Below are positions 8,880-14,653 of a stretch of DNA of 64,000 bases, one piece after another. The DNA is taken from positions 1,894,580 to 1,958,579 of the forward strand of contig NZ_FUZU01000001.1 in the NCBI RefSeq assembly GCF_900167975.1, read 5' to 3'. Source of the stretch: Ohtaekwangia koreensis. Lineage in GTDB: Bacteria; Bacteroidota; Bacteroidia; Cytophagales; Cyclobacteriaceae. A model generated the notes under the pieces. That model worked only from the letters and a program-made list of their open reading frames with translations. It was not told the origin of the DNA and made no database searches. The translations under genes and the position numbers were made by a program. The first letter of the stretch is position 1. Each line of letters starts with the position of its first letter.

Positions 8880-9400
8880 GCTTCTTTAATATCAAATATA
8901 GACCTTAACTCATTTGCTTCAGATGGCTTCATCCTTCCGGAGAGGATCAAACGAAGTTGTCTTCTGCGAAGTGCACCGCTATAAAGTTCTTTCTCTTCTT
9001 CTGTTTCCGGTTCTACTTCCGGTACATTTACAGGCTTGCCATTCTGATCCAGTGCTACAAATGTAAAGTAGGCAGCATTGCTTTCAAACTTATGACCCGA
9101 TGGTGCATCTTCTGCTTCAACATCAATGCGTATCTCCATCGATGAATTAAACGCGCGGGTAATTTTTGCTTTTAACGTCACCACGTTACCGAGTCTGATG
9201 GGATGCTTAAAAGATATATTATCCACCGAAGCCGTAACGACAGTACTATTTGAATGCTTTTGTCCGACAATTGCCGATACGATATCCATCCAATGCATCA
9301 ACCGTCCACCCATCAGGTTATTAAGTGTATTCGTATCGTTTGGCAAAACCAACTCCGTCATGCTGACAGATGATTCGCGGGGAAATTTCTTTTTACGCAT
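8876..9400 (-). CDS. Acyl-CoA thioesterase, hotdog fold (YciA/BFIT-like)
   Basis: 174 residues forming a single hotdog domain that hydrolyses acyl-CoA thioesters in the cytoplasm. Typical features are the N-terminal TELVLPNDTNTLNNLMGGRLMHWMD block (catalytic Asn/Gly helix; ending at about residue 39), then VTASVDNISFKHPIRLGNVV and the AYFTFVALD strand. The C-terminal extension of about 60 residues (EPETEEEKELYSGALRRRQ onwards) is charged. It is the first gene of a two-gene unit with the small protein at 8496, whose GTG overlaps its stop. Confidence 0.9.
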   Translation of the reverse strand: MRKKKFPRESSVSMTELVLPNDTNTLNNLMGGRLMHWMDIVSAIVGQKHSNSTVVTASVDNISFKHPIRLGNVVTLKAKITRAFNSSMEIRIDVEAEDAPSGHKFESNAAYFTFVALDQNGKPVNVPEVEPETEEEKELYSGALRRRQLRLILSGRMKPSEANELRSIFDIKEA

Positions 9401-9597
9401 TATTTAATATTGATAAAGGTTAGGTTGACTGAAAATATAGTGGGTAGATAGCTTTAGAAGCAAAATACTTTCCTATAGTTTATACATCAACACACGAGAA
9501 CATTCGATTGCAATTCACTAATAACCGTTAGTTCGTGCAAAAATCTAAAAAAATAGCTTGCAATCAAGTATATCATTTCATTATTTCGGTGCGCCTT

Positions 9598-9705
9598 ATG
9601 CAAGCAATACAAAATATAGCAACATCCTCTCTCTTCATTTCTGCGAAGAGCGTTGCTTGCATTTCCATTATCGCTATTATTACCATTACCATCATTACGG
9701 GGTAA
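9598..9705 (+). CDS. thrL: Threonine-operon leader peptide (attenuation)
   Basis: A 35-codon frame that begins ATG at 9598 and stops TAA at 9703-9705, 106 nt upstream of thrA. Its C-terminus reads CISIIAIITITIITG, so Ile and Thr make up 11 of the last 15 residues. This closely parallels the Ile/Thr-rich end of the enterobacterial thr leader, including the final Thr-Gly. Threonine and isoleucine are both end products of this pathway, so ribosome stalling at these codons would sense their charged tRNAs. The stop codon lies in one arm of a downstream hairpin. The start codon is the first in-frame ATG. The regulatory role is inference from position and composition. Confidence 0.72.
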   Translation: MQAIQNIATSSLFISAKSVACISIIAIITITIITG

Positions 9706-9760
9706 CCCGTGATCATCCCTTACCCCAGCCCCATAGGATTATGTCCGTCTCCAGGAGACG
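9699..9760 (+). promoter_or_regulatory. Alternative RNA hairpins between thr leader and thrA
   Basis: Three candidate stems were found. GGGGTAA (9699-9705) pairs with TTACCCC (9720-9726). A competing short stem ACGGG (9697-9701) pairs with CCCGT (9706-9710). CGTCTC (9746-9751) pairs with GAGACG (9755-9760), and weaker outer pairs could extend it. The first arm includes the leader stop codon, so a translating or stalled ribosome would change the folding. No hairpin with a clear U run was found, so the exact termination step is not visible. Confidence 0.5.
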
Positions 9761-9811
9761 AATGCGTAACCGACAGTTAAAGTAGATAGAACACCCTGAT
9801 AATTATTTTTC

Positions 9812-12256
9812 ATGAAAATATTAAAGTTCGGTGGCTCATCGGTGGCCACCCCTGCGCGGATACAATCTGTTGTAGAAATAGTTAAGCCTTATTTAAAAGG
9901 AGATGTAGCCGTAGTATACTCAGCCTTTGGAGGAATAACCGATGTATTAATAAACGTCAGCAAGCTCGCACTGGAGGGTAATCTGGAGTATAAAACCAAA
10001 CTTGCTGAACTTGAAAAACGCCACCTGGATGCAGTCCGAGAACTGATTGGGGTACAGAAACAGAGCAGCATTCTGGCGCAAGTAAAGTTTATGATCAACG
10101 AACTGGAAGATGTTCTTCATGGGATCTTCCTGGTAAAGGAGCGTACACCCCGCACGTTGGATTACATCATGAGCTTCGGTGAGCGGTTGTCAGCATATAT
10201 AATTTCAGAAGCTTTTAAAGACCGTGGCATTGCCGCTGAATTTTTAGATGCACGTAAAGTCGTTCGCACCGATGCTAACTTTGGATATGCTAAAGTAGAT
10301 TTTGAGACAACGAATAAACTCATCGGTGATTATTTTAAGAATCATACCGATCTTCAAATCATAACCGGTTTCATTGGAACCTCCGAGACGGGTGAGACAA
10401 CAACATTAGGACGTAGTGGTTCAGACTATACCGCAGCCATTTTTGCCGGAGCATTGCATGCAACGGATCTGGAAATATGGACTGATGTAGATGGTATGAT
10501 GACTGCTGATCCGCGCCTGGTGAAGAAAGCATTCACAGTGCCGCAGATGAGCTACGAAGAAGCGATGGAGTTATCGCACTTCGGGGCGAAAGTAATTTTC
10601 CCGGCTACCATGCAGCCTGCCATGGTAAATCGTATACCTATATGGATCAAGAATACATTTAATCCTTCTTTCGAAGGAACTGTTATCCATGCGGATTCAA
10701 AAAATGGAAAGTTGATCAAAGGTATATCTTCTATGAACCAGGTAACATTGCTAAGCGTACAAGGCAGTGGTTTACTCGGTGTAGTGGGAGCATCCATGCG
10801 ATTGTTTGCTACACTTGCCCGTGAGAAAATAAACGTAATCCTCATTAGTCAGGCATCGTCAGAACACTCCATCTGTCTGGCGATTGAAAATCAATATACC
10901 AAGCAAGCAAAGTCAGCGATAGAGAAGGAATTTCAATATGAAATCAGAAATGAGGAGATAGATGAAGTGCAGGTAGAAACAGACTTGTCGATCGTTGCCG
11001 TAGTAGGCGATGGCATGAAGCATAGCCCCGGTACAAGCGGTCGCATGTTCAGTTCTCTTGGTAAGAACGGTGTCAACGTAATGGCTATAGCACAGGGTTC
11101 TTCCGAGCGTAATATATCCGCGGTTGTGCGGCAGGCAGATGTTGCCAAAGCGTTGAATGCTTTGCACGAGGCATTCTTCTTATCGGATCGTAAGGTGTTA
11201 AATGTTTTTCTGGTGGGTACAGGACTCATTGGAAATTCCCTTGTGAATATGATTGAGGAACAGTATAACAAACTGGCGAAAGAAAATCTGCTGGAAGTAA
11301 ATGTTATAGCTGTTGCCAACAGTAAGAAAATGATCTTCAATGAAGATGGTCTGAAGTTATCTACTTGCATTGAGAGGATGAAGCAAGAAGGAGAGGCCAT
11401 GAGTATGAAAGGATTTGCCGATAAAATGATCGGTTTGAATCTGCCCAACAGCATATTTGTTGATTGTACTTCAAGTGAAGAAGTTACTGCTTCCTACGAA
11501 GAAATCTTATCCGCCAATATATCGATCGTAACACCGAACAAGAAAGCAAATTCCGCTTCGATGGATCAATACTATACTTTAAAGCAAACTGCTTTTAAGC
11601 GTGGTGTTAAATTCTTGTACGAGACCAATGTTGGTGCTGGACTTCCGGTTATCAATACATTAAACGACTTGTTGTTGAGTGGTGATAAAGTGATCTGTAT
11701 TGAAGGTGTGCTGAGCGGTACATTAAACTTTATTTTCAGTTCCTATACCGAAGGCAAGAAGTTCAGCGATGTAGTGAAAGAAGCGAAAGAGAAAGGATAT
11801 ACCGAACCGGACCCACGTGATGATTTAAGTGGTATGGATGTAGCGCGAAAGATATTGATCCTCTCTCGCGAAACGGGATTGTCCTTCGAGTTGAATGATA
11901 TACAAGTAGAGAATCTTGTCCCCGATGATTGCCGCAAAGGAAGTGTAGAAGATTTCTTTGCTTCATTAGAGAAACACGACACAGCGTTTGAAAAACTTCG
12001 TGCCGGTGCTCATTCAAAAGGAGAGAAGCTGCGGTATATGGCGGTTCTTAAAGACGGAAAGGTGAGTGTAAAACTCGGCTCTGTCAACAATGATCATCCA
12101 TTCTACTCACTCTCTGGTAGCGACAATATAATCTTGTTAACAACCGAGCGCTATCACGAAAGGCCGTTGGTAATTCGCGGGCCGGGAGCAGGAGCAGCCG
12201 TAACAGCAGCGGGTGTATTTGCAGATGTGATACGTATTGGACATTACGCCAAATAA
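9812..12256 (+). CDS. thrA: Bifunctional aspartokinase / homoserine dehydrogenase
   Basis: 814 residues. It catalyses the first step (aspartate phosphorylation) and third step (aspartate semialdehyde to homoserine) of threonine synthesis. The aspartokinase half starts MKILKFGGSSVATPARI and has SFGERLSAYIIS and TTLGRSGSDYTAA. Regulatory ACT domains follow at about 310-460. The dehydrogenase half begins near 463 with VFLVGTGLIGNSLVN (NAD(P)-binding) and carries NVGAGLPVINTL near 607 and GVLSGTLNFIF. It is the first gene of thrABC and follows the leader peptide. The length matches ThrA/MetL-type fusions. Confidence 0.97.
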   Translation: MKILKFGGSSVATPARIQSVVEIVKPYLKGDVAVVYSAFGGITDVLINVSKLALEGNLEYKTKLAELEKRHLDAVRELIGVQKQSSILAQVKFMINELEDVLHGIFLVKERTPRTLDYIMSFGERLSAYIISEAFKDRGIAAEFLDARKVVRTDANFGYAKVDFETTNKLIGDYFKNHTDLQIITGFIGTSETGETTTLGRSGSDYTAAIFAGALHATDLEIWTDVDGMMTADPRLVKKAFTVPQMSYEEAMELSHFGAKVIFPATMQPAMVNRIPIWIKNTFNPSFEGTVIHADSKNGKLIKGISSMNQVTLLSVQGSGLLGVVGASMRLFATLAREKINVILISQASSEHSICLAIENQYTKQAKSAIEKEFQYEIRNEEIDEVQVETDLSIVAVVGDGMKHSPGTSGRMFSSLGKNGVNVMAIAQGSSERNISAVVRQADVAKALNALHEAFFLSDRKVLNVFLVGTGLIGNSLVNMIEEQYNKLAKENLLEVNVIAVANSKKMIFNEDGLKLSTCIERMKQEGEAMSMKGFADKMIGLNLPNSIFVDCTSSEEVTASYEEILSANISIVTPNKKANSASMDQYYTLKQTAFKRGVKFLYETNVGAGLPVINTLNDLLLSGDKVICIEGVLSGTLNFIFSSYTEGKKFSDVVKEAKEKGYTEPDPRDDLSGMDVARKILILSRETGLSFELNDIQVENLVPDDCRKGSVEDFFASLEKHDTAFEKLRAGAHSKGEKLRYMAVLKDGKVSVKLGSVNNDHPFYSLSGSDNIILLTTERYHERPLVIRGPGAGAAVTAAGVFADVIRIGHYAK

Positions 12257-12344: not shown

Positions 12345-13277
12345 ATGAAATCAATAAAAGCATCTGCCCCCGCGACTGTAGCAAACGTCTCTTGCGGCTT
12401 TGATATTTTCGGATTTGCAGTAGAAGCACCCGCAGATGAAGTGATCGTAACACTTACCGATAAACCCGGAGTTACCATTACTAAAATTATAGGGGATGAT
12501 GGCAGACTTCCTTTGGAAGCATCAAAGAATACATGCGGTGTTGCTGTATTGGAATTTTTAAAAGCTGTTAATAGTAAATATGGTGCAGAAATTATACTCT
12601 ATAAAAACCTTCCGTTAGGAAGTGGCATGGGATCAAGCGCAGCAAGTTCTGCAGCAGCCCTGGTAGCGATTAACGAATTGCATGGTAATCCACTTACGCG
12701 CGAACAGCTTCTTCCTTTTGCGATGGAATCTGAGCGTATAGCATGTGGTTCTGCGCATGCCGATAACGTTGCGCCCTCTCTGTTGGGTGGCTTTGTTTTG
12801 ATCAGAGGATATGCTCCTCTGGACGTTGCTACTATACCTACACCAGCTAATTTGTTTTGCACGCTGGTACATCCTCATCTTGAATTAAAGACCGAAGATT
12901 CCAGGCGCGTATTAAAACCAACTATACCCATAAAGGATGCCATTACACAGTGGGGAAATATAGCAGGCATGGTAGTGGGCTTAATGAAACCGGATTACGG
13001 ATTGATCCAGCGTTCATTGAATGATGTAGTCGCTGAGCCGATTCGTTCTGTACTGATTCCTGGCTTCTATACGATAAAGGAAGAAGCGATTAAAGCAGGT
13101 GCGCTGGGCTGTGGTATATCCGGATCGGGGCCAACCATCTTTGCGTTATCAACCGAAAGAACTATAGCACAAACCGTTGGTGAAGCGATGCAAAAGCAGT
13201 TTGATCTCCTGCAGTTAAAGAGCGATGTGTTCGTTTCTAAAATCAATGGCGAAGGAGCCATGATATTAAAAGGGTAA
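12345..13277 (+). CDS. thrB: Homoserine kinase
   Basis: 310 residues, GHMP kinase superfamily. It phosphorylates homoserine to O-phosphohomoserine. The N-terminus KASAPATVANVSCGFDIFG is typical. The ATP-binding loop LPLGSGMGSSAASSAAAL lies near residues 88-105, and the C-terminal GCGISGSGPTIFAL is the third GHMP motif. It is the second gene of the thr operon, 88 nt after thrA, with an inverted repeat in the gap. Confidence 0.97.
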   Translation: MKSIKASAPATVANVSCGFDIFGFAVEAPADEVIVTLTDKPGVTITKIIGDDGRLPLEASKNTCGVAVLEFLKAVNSKYGAEIILYKNLPLGSGMGSSAASSAAALVAINELHGNPLTREQLLPFAMESERIACGSAHADNVAPSLLGGFVLIRGYAPLDVATIPTPANLFCTLVHPHLELKTEDSRRVLKPTIPIKDAITQWGNIAGMVVGLMKPDYGLIQRSLNDVVAEPIRSVLIPGFYTIKEEAIKAGALGCGISGSGPTIFALSTERTIAQTVGEAMQKQFDLLQLKSDVFVSKINGEGAMILKG

Positions 13278-13348: not shown

Positions 13349-14653
13349 ATGAAATTTTATAGTACCAATAACAAGAATTTAAAAGTTGATCTAAAGGAAG
13401 CGGTAACACAAGGACTGGCACCGGATAACGGACTCTATATGCCCGAGCATATACCAGTGTTGCCAAAAGAATTTTTCGATACCATTCATACGAAATCCTT
13501 TCGGGATATAGCCTTCATCGTTGCTCAAAATATTATCGGGGATGATGTTCCCGCTGATGAACTCAGAAGAATCGTTGATCATACGATTCAATTCGATGCC
13601 CCGGTAGTGGAGGTGGATGATCATGCGTATGCGTTAGAACTTTTTCATGGTCCTACATTAGCCTTTAAAGATTTTGGTGCACGCTTTATGTCTCAGCTGT
13701 TGGGATATTTTGCGAAGGAACAAAGTCAAGAGATTATTGTTCTGGTGGCAACCTCGGGAGATACTGGCAGTGCCGTTGCCAATGGTTTCTTAGGCGTAAA
13801 AGGCACGAAGGTTATTGTACTATATCCTTCCGGGAAAGTAAGCGAGATACAGGAAAAACAGTTTACAACACTTGGGCAGAACGTAATAGCTCTGGAGGTA
13901 GACGGTACATTTGACGATTGCCAACGCCTGGTGAAGCAGGCATTTTTAGATGACGTGCTGCGGAAGAAATACTTCCTCACTTCTGCGAACTCGATTAATA
14001 TAGCACGGTTGATTCCACAGTCCTTTTATTACTTCTATGCATATGCACAAGTGAAGGATAAAAATAAGCCCGTAGTGATTTCTATACCGAGTGGAAACTT
14101 CGGAAATCTGACAGGTGGATTGCTGGCACAACGTATGGGGCTACCGATCGAGCGATTCATTGCCACTACGAATGTGAATGATGTTGTTCCTGAGTATTTG
14201 AAGACTGAAGTATTTACACCGCGTCCTTCCAGGCAAACGATCAGTAATGCGATGGATGTAGGCAACCCAAGTAACTTTGTAAGGTTGTTAGATCTGTTTG
14301 ATAAAGACTTCGCGAGGCTTTCGAAAGATATTGTGGGGTATGCTTTCTCGGATGATGAGACACGTGCTGCCATGCGCCATATATATGCGTCTACCGACTA
14401 TGTTATGGATCCTCATGGAGCCATTGGGTATCTGGGATTGATCAAGTACCTGGAAGAACGTGGTGAAGATATAACCGGTATATTTCTTGAGACAGCGCAT
14501 CCTGCTAAATTTAAGGAAGTAGTGGATGAAACGTTGTCGCGCCCGATTGATATACCTTTGCCGCTTCAGCGATTTCTGGAGCAACCCAAGAAAAGTATAC
14601 CAATGAAAAGCGACTTCGAAGGGTTTAAAGATTTTCTTCTGAGTACTCTGTAG
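13349..14653 (+). CDS. thrC: Threonine synthase
   Basis: 434 residues. A PLP enzyme that converts O-phosphohomoserine to threonine. The N-terminus MKFYSTNNKNLKVDLKEAV is the long-form type; the PLP lysine lies in PTLAFKDFGARFM (about residue 110). The phosphate-binding ATSGDTGSAVANGF and SIPSGNFGNLTGGLLA segments are intact. It is the last thr gene. Its 3' end overlaps the tail of the convergent GtrA-like gene by 29 bp, so the two transcripts are complementary there. Confidence 0.97.
   Translation: MKFYSTNNKNLKVDLKEAVTQGLAPDNGLYMPEHIPVLPKEFFDTIHTKSFRDIAFIVAQNIIGDDVPADELRRIVDHTIQFDAPVVEVDDHAYALELFHGPTLAFKDFGARFMSQLLGYFAKEQSQEIIVLVATSGDTGSAVANGFLGVKGTKVIVLYPSGKVSEIQEKQFTTLGQNVIALEVDGTFDDCQRLVKQAFLDDVLRKKYFLTSANSINIARLIPQSFYYFYAYAQVKDKNKPVVISIPSGNFGNLTGGLLAQRMGLPIERFIATTNVNDVVPEYLKTEVFTPRPSRQTISNAMDVGNPSNFVRLLDLFDKDFARLSKDIVGYAFSDDETRAAMRHIYASTDYVMDPHGAIGYLGLIKYLEERGEDITGIFLETAHPAKFKEVVDETLSRPIDIPLPLQRFLEQPKKSIPMKSDFEGFKDFLLSTL

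Follow-up and report, generated by a model that had tools for sequence, protein, structure and literature searches.

Upstream of the thrABC operon of Ohtaekwangia koreensis lies a short frame that ends in a run of isoleucine and threonine codons, and we hold with good confidence that it serves as a Thr/Ile-sensing leader-peptide attenuator of this operon, a confidence that applies to sensing and attenuation and not to the Rho-dependent step discussed below. It was found in a 64,000-nucleotide stretch of the 7.24 Mb genome (the window), whose coordinates are used here. The frame, its conservation, a hairpin over the stop codon (P1) and the absence of a classical terminator switch from this leader type are direct results of the computation. 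That thrABC is under attenuation control is very likely on sequence grounds, and this tiny gene, rich in Thr and Ile codons, probably lets stalled ribosomes switch the pathway on.

The leader frame occupies 9598-9705 of the forward strand (35 codons plus the stop codon at 9703-9705) and translates as MQAIQNIATSSLFISAKSVACISIIAIITITIITG. Its C-terminal end, CISIIAIITITIITG, has Ile or Thr at 11 of 15 residues, exactly as described in the original prediction. The presumed sensing codons form the run at residues 22-34 (ISIIAIITITIIT, 9661-9699, forward strand). Ten Ile/Thr residues are present in the densest 12-residue stretch, a count that 3000 dinucleotide shuffles of the 500 nt preceding thrA never produced; their maximum was nine, reached four times. 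The leader stop is 106 nt from the start of thrA (9812-12256), which encodes a fused aspartokinase and homoserine dehydrogenase and is followed, also on the forward strand, by a GHMP kinase gene identified by context as thrB (homoserine kinase, 12345-13277) and by thrC (threonine synthase, 13349-14653). A short frame with a run of end-product codons directly upstream of thrA-thrB-thrC is the general layout of a leader-peptide attenuator, and the frame is a real Thr/Ile leader peptide.

Among the matches listed, the nearest ThrA proteins are those of an uncultured MAG (99% identical), a second MAG (92%), Parachryseolinea silvisoli (84%), Dawidia soli (84%) and Chryseolinea serpens (82%), with P. 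silvisoli and C. serpens belonging to the Fulvivirgaceae of the Cytophagales. From 80 ThrA loci, three without a gene start were dropped (L067, L084, L089) and 44 were read. In 42 of these 44 named relatives the frame ends in ATTACGGGGTRR; the exceptions are L071, which has no such end, and L060, in which the stop of the conserved ACTACGGGGTRR end is replaced by TGG, giving a leader three codons longer (TTTGWRP-stop). The remaining 33 loci (ThrA 52-58% identical) showed no TG-ended Ile/Thr leader in a listing of one best frame per locus. At the family level, 100 of 126 genomes with a ThrA match were scored (L130 had no upstream DNA and 25 were left out), under a rule that misses some frames visible by eye (L225, L229). 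The (I/T)TG-stop signature is present in 48 of the 52 scored genomes with ThrA at least 57% identical (12/12 at 70% or above, 36/40 at 57-69%), in none of 30 at 50-56% and in none of 18 below 50%; other Ile/Thr-rich frames occur in 5 and 7 genomes of the latter two classes. Overall, 48 genomes carry the TG signature, 12 a different Ile/Thr-rich frame and 40 neither.

For comparison of the leaders, groups were drawn by hand: A1 (n = 24, including the window), A2 (n = 23), A3 (n = 25) and B (n = 13), with the exact ATTACGGGGTRR end in 58 of the 72 A1-A3 sequences. In-frame Ile/Thr codons make up 196 of 288 positions of the run in A1, 167 of 276 in A2 and 136 of 300 in A3, while the other two frames give only 2-18 across A1-A3 (2 and 4 of 288 in A1). 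Ile and Thr interchange within the run, the positions adjacent to the stop are the most constant, and other residues are rare near the stop; the N-terminal half of the leader drifts, while the run and the end are kept. Conservation of the frame and its Ile/Thr codons in relatives, on which the prediction had itself been staked, is thus found in the named relatives (42/44), in the family (48/52) and in the frame test, and together with a run beyond chance and the interchange of Ile and Thr it argues for an attenuator. A nucleotide signature, ATYACGGGGTRA(N)CCCGT, points the same way, since it occurs once per genome, at thrA, in six of seven members of the genus; the seventh genome (G001, 99% complete) has neither a fused ThrA of this kind nor the leader signature. 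A second form of the layout is seen in L153, L157, L178, L195, L223, L226, L227, L228 and L236, whose frames end in TP-stop, TPxRG-stop and the like.

Codon choice within the run is also biased. ATA accounts for 2%, 2% and 8% of the Ile codons in A1, A2 and A3, compared with 31% in 25 long frames of the window, and ACC for 45%, 38% and 57% of the Thr codons, compared with 25%. The avoidance of ATA and preference for ACC further support the attenuator reading, and fit either a sensor tuned to particular tRNA isoacceptors or selection for RNA that contains C and little G.

The prediction would fall if transcription began downstream of 9705; promoter-like boxes lie instead upstream of the leader ATG, conserved in 14 of 24 A1 sequences, and a start is predicted there. 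The element TTATTTCG precedes the frame in these 14 A1 sequences, in 1 of 23 in A2 and in 0 of 25 in A3. Among the 15 TTATTTCG sequences (window included), 14 have TTG[CG] at a distance of exactly 21 nt ahead of the -7-like box, and the leader ATG follows the box by 6-12 nt. In the window, the putative -33-like TTG element is at 9558-9560 and the -7-like box, TATTTCGG, at 9582-9589, both on the forward strand, the latter being an imperfect match to the Bacteroidota consensus TAnnTTTG. Boxes that are similar but different were seen by eye in the other groups. Setting the box at -12 to -5, the position given for the Bacteroidota -7 box in a passage of PMC9723704, places the predicted transcription start near 9594, about 4 nt ahead of the ATG.

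The stop codon is positioned in the loop of hairpin P1, ATTACGGG(GTAA)CCCGTGAT (9694-9713, forward strand), the core of which pairs ACGGG at 9697-9701 with CCCGT at 9706-9710. This core is identical in all 40 distinct copies from A1 and A3, which leaves hardly any covariation there and indicates a constraint on the sequence that goes beyond pairing. Folding of P1 is stronger than in shuffles for 16 of 24 A1 and 12 of 25 A3 sequences, and is not significant in A2 (0/23) or B (1/13). Several B leaders have a CCCC/GGGG hairpin at the place of P1, and in several of the TP-stop leaders such a hairpin at the stop replaces ACGGG/CCCGT. The stem originally proposed to hold the stop codon, GGGGTAA (9699-9705) with TTACCCC (9720-9726) on the forward strand (P2), can pair in the window and is weakly supported or unsupported in the relatives: at least seven uninterrupted pairs occur at chance in A1 (8/24, 8.3 expected) and somewhat above chance in A2 (19/23, 12.9 expected) and A3 (15/25, 7.9 expected). 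Predicted folding of the window RNA without a ribosome favours P1 over P2 by 0.96 to 0.03, so that P1, and not P2, is the best-supported stem. In folds computed for successive codon positions of the ribosome on the window RNA, as had been suggested, P1 is predicted to form (0.89-0.97) when the A-site is at least 21 nt before the stop, and neither stem forms when it is closer than 18 nt; P2 dominates (0.75) solely at 18 nt. Ribosome position thus switches P1, and this in silico behaviour, together with the promoter-like boxes, adds to the case for attenuation.

A [CT]ATA element lies 8-10 nt behind P1 in 42 of 56 distinct A1, A3 and B copies, against 4.2 expected. The spacing matches that of hairpin-stabilised pauses, in which the hairpin is 11-12 nt before the paused 3' end according to a passage of PMC12288461. 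The element is absent from the window's own copy, which reads CATCCCTTACCCC there, and A2 differs too. A second promoter at this element was considered and rejected, as by eye the position of its -33 box is occupied by P1.

No terminator-like site was found on the forward strand of 9000-10000, in agreement with the original statement that a clear U-run terminator is missing. The leader and the operon are therefore not separated by the U-run terminator of a classical attenuator, although the same scanner finds those of the his and trp leaders. Before hisG (L240, G000:C6:1508296-1508760, reverse strand), a leader peptide with five His codons (MNNNITSGLHHHHHGNDTMRGTAF) is followed by an 11-pair hairpin with a TTTTTG tail (TTTTTGTTTA), a classical his attenuator. 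Before the gene for a chorismate-binding enzyme (L241, G000:C3:561868-562623, reverse strand), a leader peptide with three Trp codons (MKQFNNIAWWWHISRYDM) precedes a 12-pair hairpin with seven T (TTTTTTTGCC), a classical trp attenuator. These two leaders of the same genome, each a short peptide with a cognate run before a biosynthetic gene, show that leader-peptide control is in use there; they differ from the thr leader in their stems with T-rich tails. A search for an ilvD leader carrying a run of Ile, Leu and Val codons found none.

Classical thr leaders are present elsewhere, with strong U-run terminators in two loci of the family (L208, L214) and four of the class (L176, L189, L191, L196). 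As in the window, their thrA is of this kind and is preceded by an Ile/Thr-rich frame, but the 5' arm of their terminator pairs with the leader end: pairing of the leader end with downstream RNA has a mean z of -1.64 and -2.13 for two choices of window, with three of six sequences in each. No such excess is seen in A1, A2, A3 or B, where this pairing is at chance level in the same windows (mean z -0.31 to 0.58). The G run next to the stop likewise shows no clear pairing with downstream RNA: its mean z is -0.36 when the downstream RNA is shuffled (p ≤ 0.05 in 8 of 85) and -0.91 when the G-run RNA is shuffled, and P2-type pairing is in modest excess in A3 only (mean z -0.98). A classical antiterminator/terminator switch was rejected, as pairing of the leader end and post-stop RNA with downstream RNA is at chance in all four groups. 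The absence of a U-run terminator, the chance-level pairing and the presence of classical attenuators at his and trp in this genome together indicate that the read-out of the thr leader differs.

The proposed mechanism begins with transcription starting a few bases before the ATG, so that translation of the leader would follow immediately. When charged tRNA-Thr and tRNA-Ile are plentiful, the ribosome would reach the stop codon; with a shortage of either it would stall in the Ile/Thr run, and its position would decide whether P1 folds over the stop codon. Stalling is expected to raise thrABC expression. Once a ribosome has finished and departed, the RNA of the run, poor in G, and the C-rich stretch that follows the stop would lie exposed. 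A stalled ribosome would mask this RNA, and if Rho loads there, control would have the right sign. In tnaC, a stalled ribosome masks RNA from Rho. The proposed logic is the same here, with the Rho step predicted from composition; tnaC senses free tryptophan through the nascent peptide, whereas stalling in the window leader would come from uncharged tRNA. We therefore favour, at somewhat less than an even chance, Rho-dependent termination between the leader stop and thrA as the putative read-out.

The case for a Rho step rests on the C-rich, G-poor composition behind the stop, to which P1's own C-rich arm contributes. In the window this stretch, a candidate part of a Rho loading site, is at 9706-9734 on the forward strand. 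For this comparison, 209 upstream stretches gave 198 distinct ones, of which 95 satisfied the Ile/Thr rule; the TG signature occurs in several of the other 103 (L068, L121, L131, L142, L201, L234). L060, L078, L179, L194 and the classical leaders were taken out of the terminator-less set. In the 60 nt behind the stop, 85 terminator-less leaders have C 0.286, G 0.148 and YC 0.194 per nt, compared with 0.183, 0.178 and 0.097 in six classical leaders and 0.192, 0.182 and 0.102 upstream of thrA in 102 leaderless genomes. G is 8-12% in the region 20-40 nt before the leader stop. The bias is not clear in group B, unlike A1-A3 (C 0.20-0.23 and G 0.15-0.22 in the first 40 nt behind the stop), and the C excess of the 60 nt behind the window's leader stop is matched in 3.2% of all stretches of that length in the window. 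A broader proposal, which we regard as rather unlikely in its entirety, is a Cytophagales class of leader switch in which the terminator has been replaced by a stop-codon hairpin, pausing of RNA polymerase about 11-12 nt further on, and loading of Rho onto the run. If true, the sensing Ile/Thr codons would double as the Rho site and be masked directly by the stalled ribosome.

The same sensing could instead be coupled to intrinsic or NusA/NusG-dependent termination with little or no U tract, at a hairpin termed P3 or, in some relatives, at P1, making the leader a degenerate descendant of the classical form; we consider this unlikely. P3 (9736-9771, forward strand) consists of an inner stem, GTCTC(CAG)GAGAC at 9747-9759, and an outer stem. 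It lies about 30-55 nt behind the leader stop, where by eye classical leaders have their terminator hairpin, and it exceeds shuffles at p ≤ 0.05 in 10 of 24 A1 (mean z -1.88) and 9 of 25 A3 sequences (mean z -1.44), as well as in 5 of 23 A2 and 2 of 13 B. In A1, its pairs 4 and 6 are above every shuffle, a pair count based on 16 distinct sequences after L066 and L119 fell out. The [CT]ATA element at pause spacing behind P1 also favours this alternative, as does a lax scan for terminator-like sites, which matched 25 of the 85 terminator-less leaders, compared with 6% of shuffles. Of these 25 matches, 18 are P1 followed by a T-rich tail, and an intrinsic terminator may be present in some relatives. 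The terminator rule recovers six of eight leaders listed as classical and gives nothing for L174 and L225, in which T runs are visible by eye. Against this alternative, neither P3 nor P1 is followed by a T run in the window, which also has no [CT]ATA, P3 is predicted to form at every ribosome position tried, and upstream pairing is at chance. P1 itself was rejected as the terminator: stalls near the beginning of the run would give control of the wrong sign, and no T-rich tail follows P1 in the window. A ribosome stalled at the final codons would prevent P1 from folding, so that P1 may act as a terminator in relatives. A stop-codon hairpin and a U-run terminator are seen within one Thr leader in L174, of the same order, which has CCCGG-TAA-CCGGG around the stop and then AGCCCG...CGGGCTTTTT, a terminator by eye.

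Control at the level of thrA translation or mRNA stability rather than transcription, with the same sensing, is quite unlikely. It would accord with the lack of a terminator on the forward strand of 9000-10000 and with initiation in this phylum without Shine-Dalgarno sites, tuned by mRNA structure (a passage of PMC6847099), but the thrA start is 106 nt away, no conserved helix reaches it in the A1 and A3 consensus folds (up to 100 nt behind the stop), and by eye the gap sequence adjoining thrA is not conserved. That the frame is a functional small protein or a mere booster of operon translation without amino acid control is very improbable, since its N-terminal half drifts while the run and end stay, the amino acids of the run match the operon, and reinitiation over 106 nt is unlikely where, according to a passage of PMC4833913, the Bacteroidetes peak is at 11-14 bp.

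The Thr/Ile-sensing leader described here resembles enterobacterial thrL (Rfam Thr_leader, RF00506) in placing a short Thr/Ile-rich leader peptide directly before thrABC. The E. coli leader peptide contains a TITxxTG stretch that is also present in the window leader. The window leader differs from thrL in having neither a U-run terminator nor leader-to-terminator-arm pairing, and in having a short conserved hairpin whose loop contains the stop codon. No Rfam family matched the window at gathering score, and Thr_leader gave no match at E up to 10 in 9450-9850. Within the same phylum, Flavobacterium psychrophilum has been suggested to use leader-peptide attenuation, with leader peptides ahead of its amino acid biosynthesis operons (PMC9723704), in a passage that describes neither thr nor terminator-less leaders in any detail. 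For Bacteroides thetaiotaomicron, a passage of PMC7366714 mentions short 5' UTR frames that resemble leader peptides. A comparative survey by Lopatovskaya and others (2010) is cited in a passage of PMC4833913, and a search of the open-licence literature found no paper on this leader. Searches based on terminators would miss this class of leader, and one such survey states, in the passage seen, that Rho-dependent cases escape it (PMC2965389).

Leader-peptide attenuation is a textbook device, here kept in part of a Bacteroidota family without the textbook terminator. The textbook forms persist beside it, for his and trp in the same genome and for thr in some members of the family. This natural series within one family makes a read-out of ribosome position without an intrinsic terminator testable.
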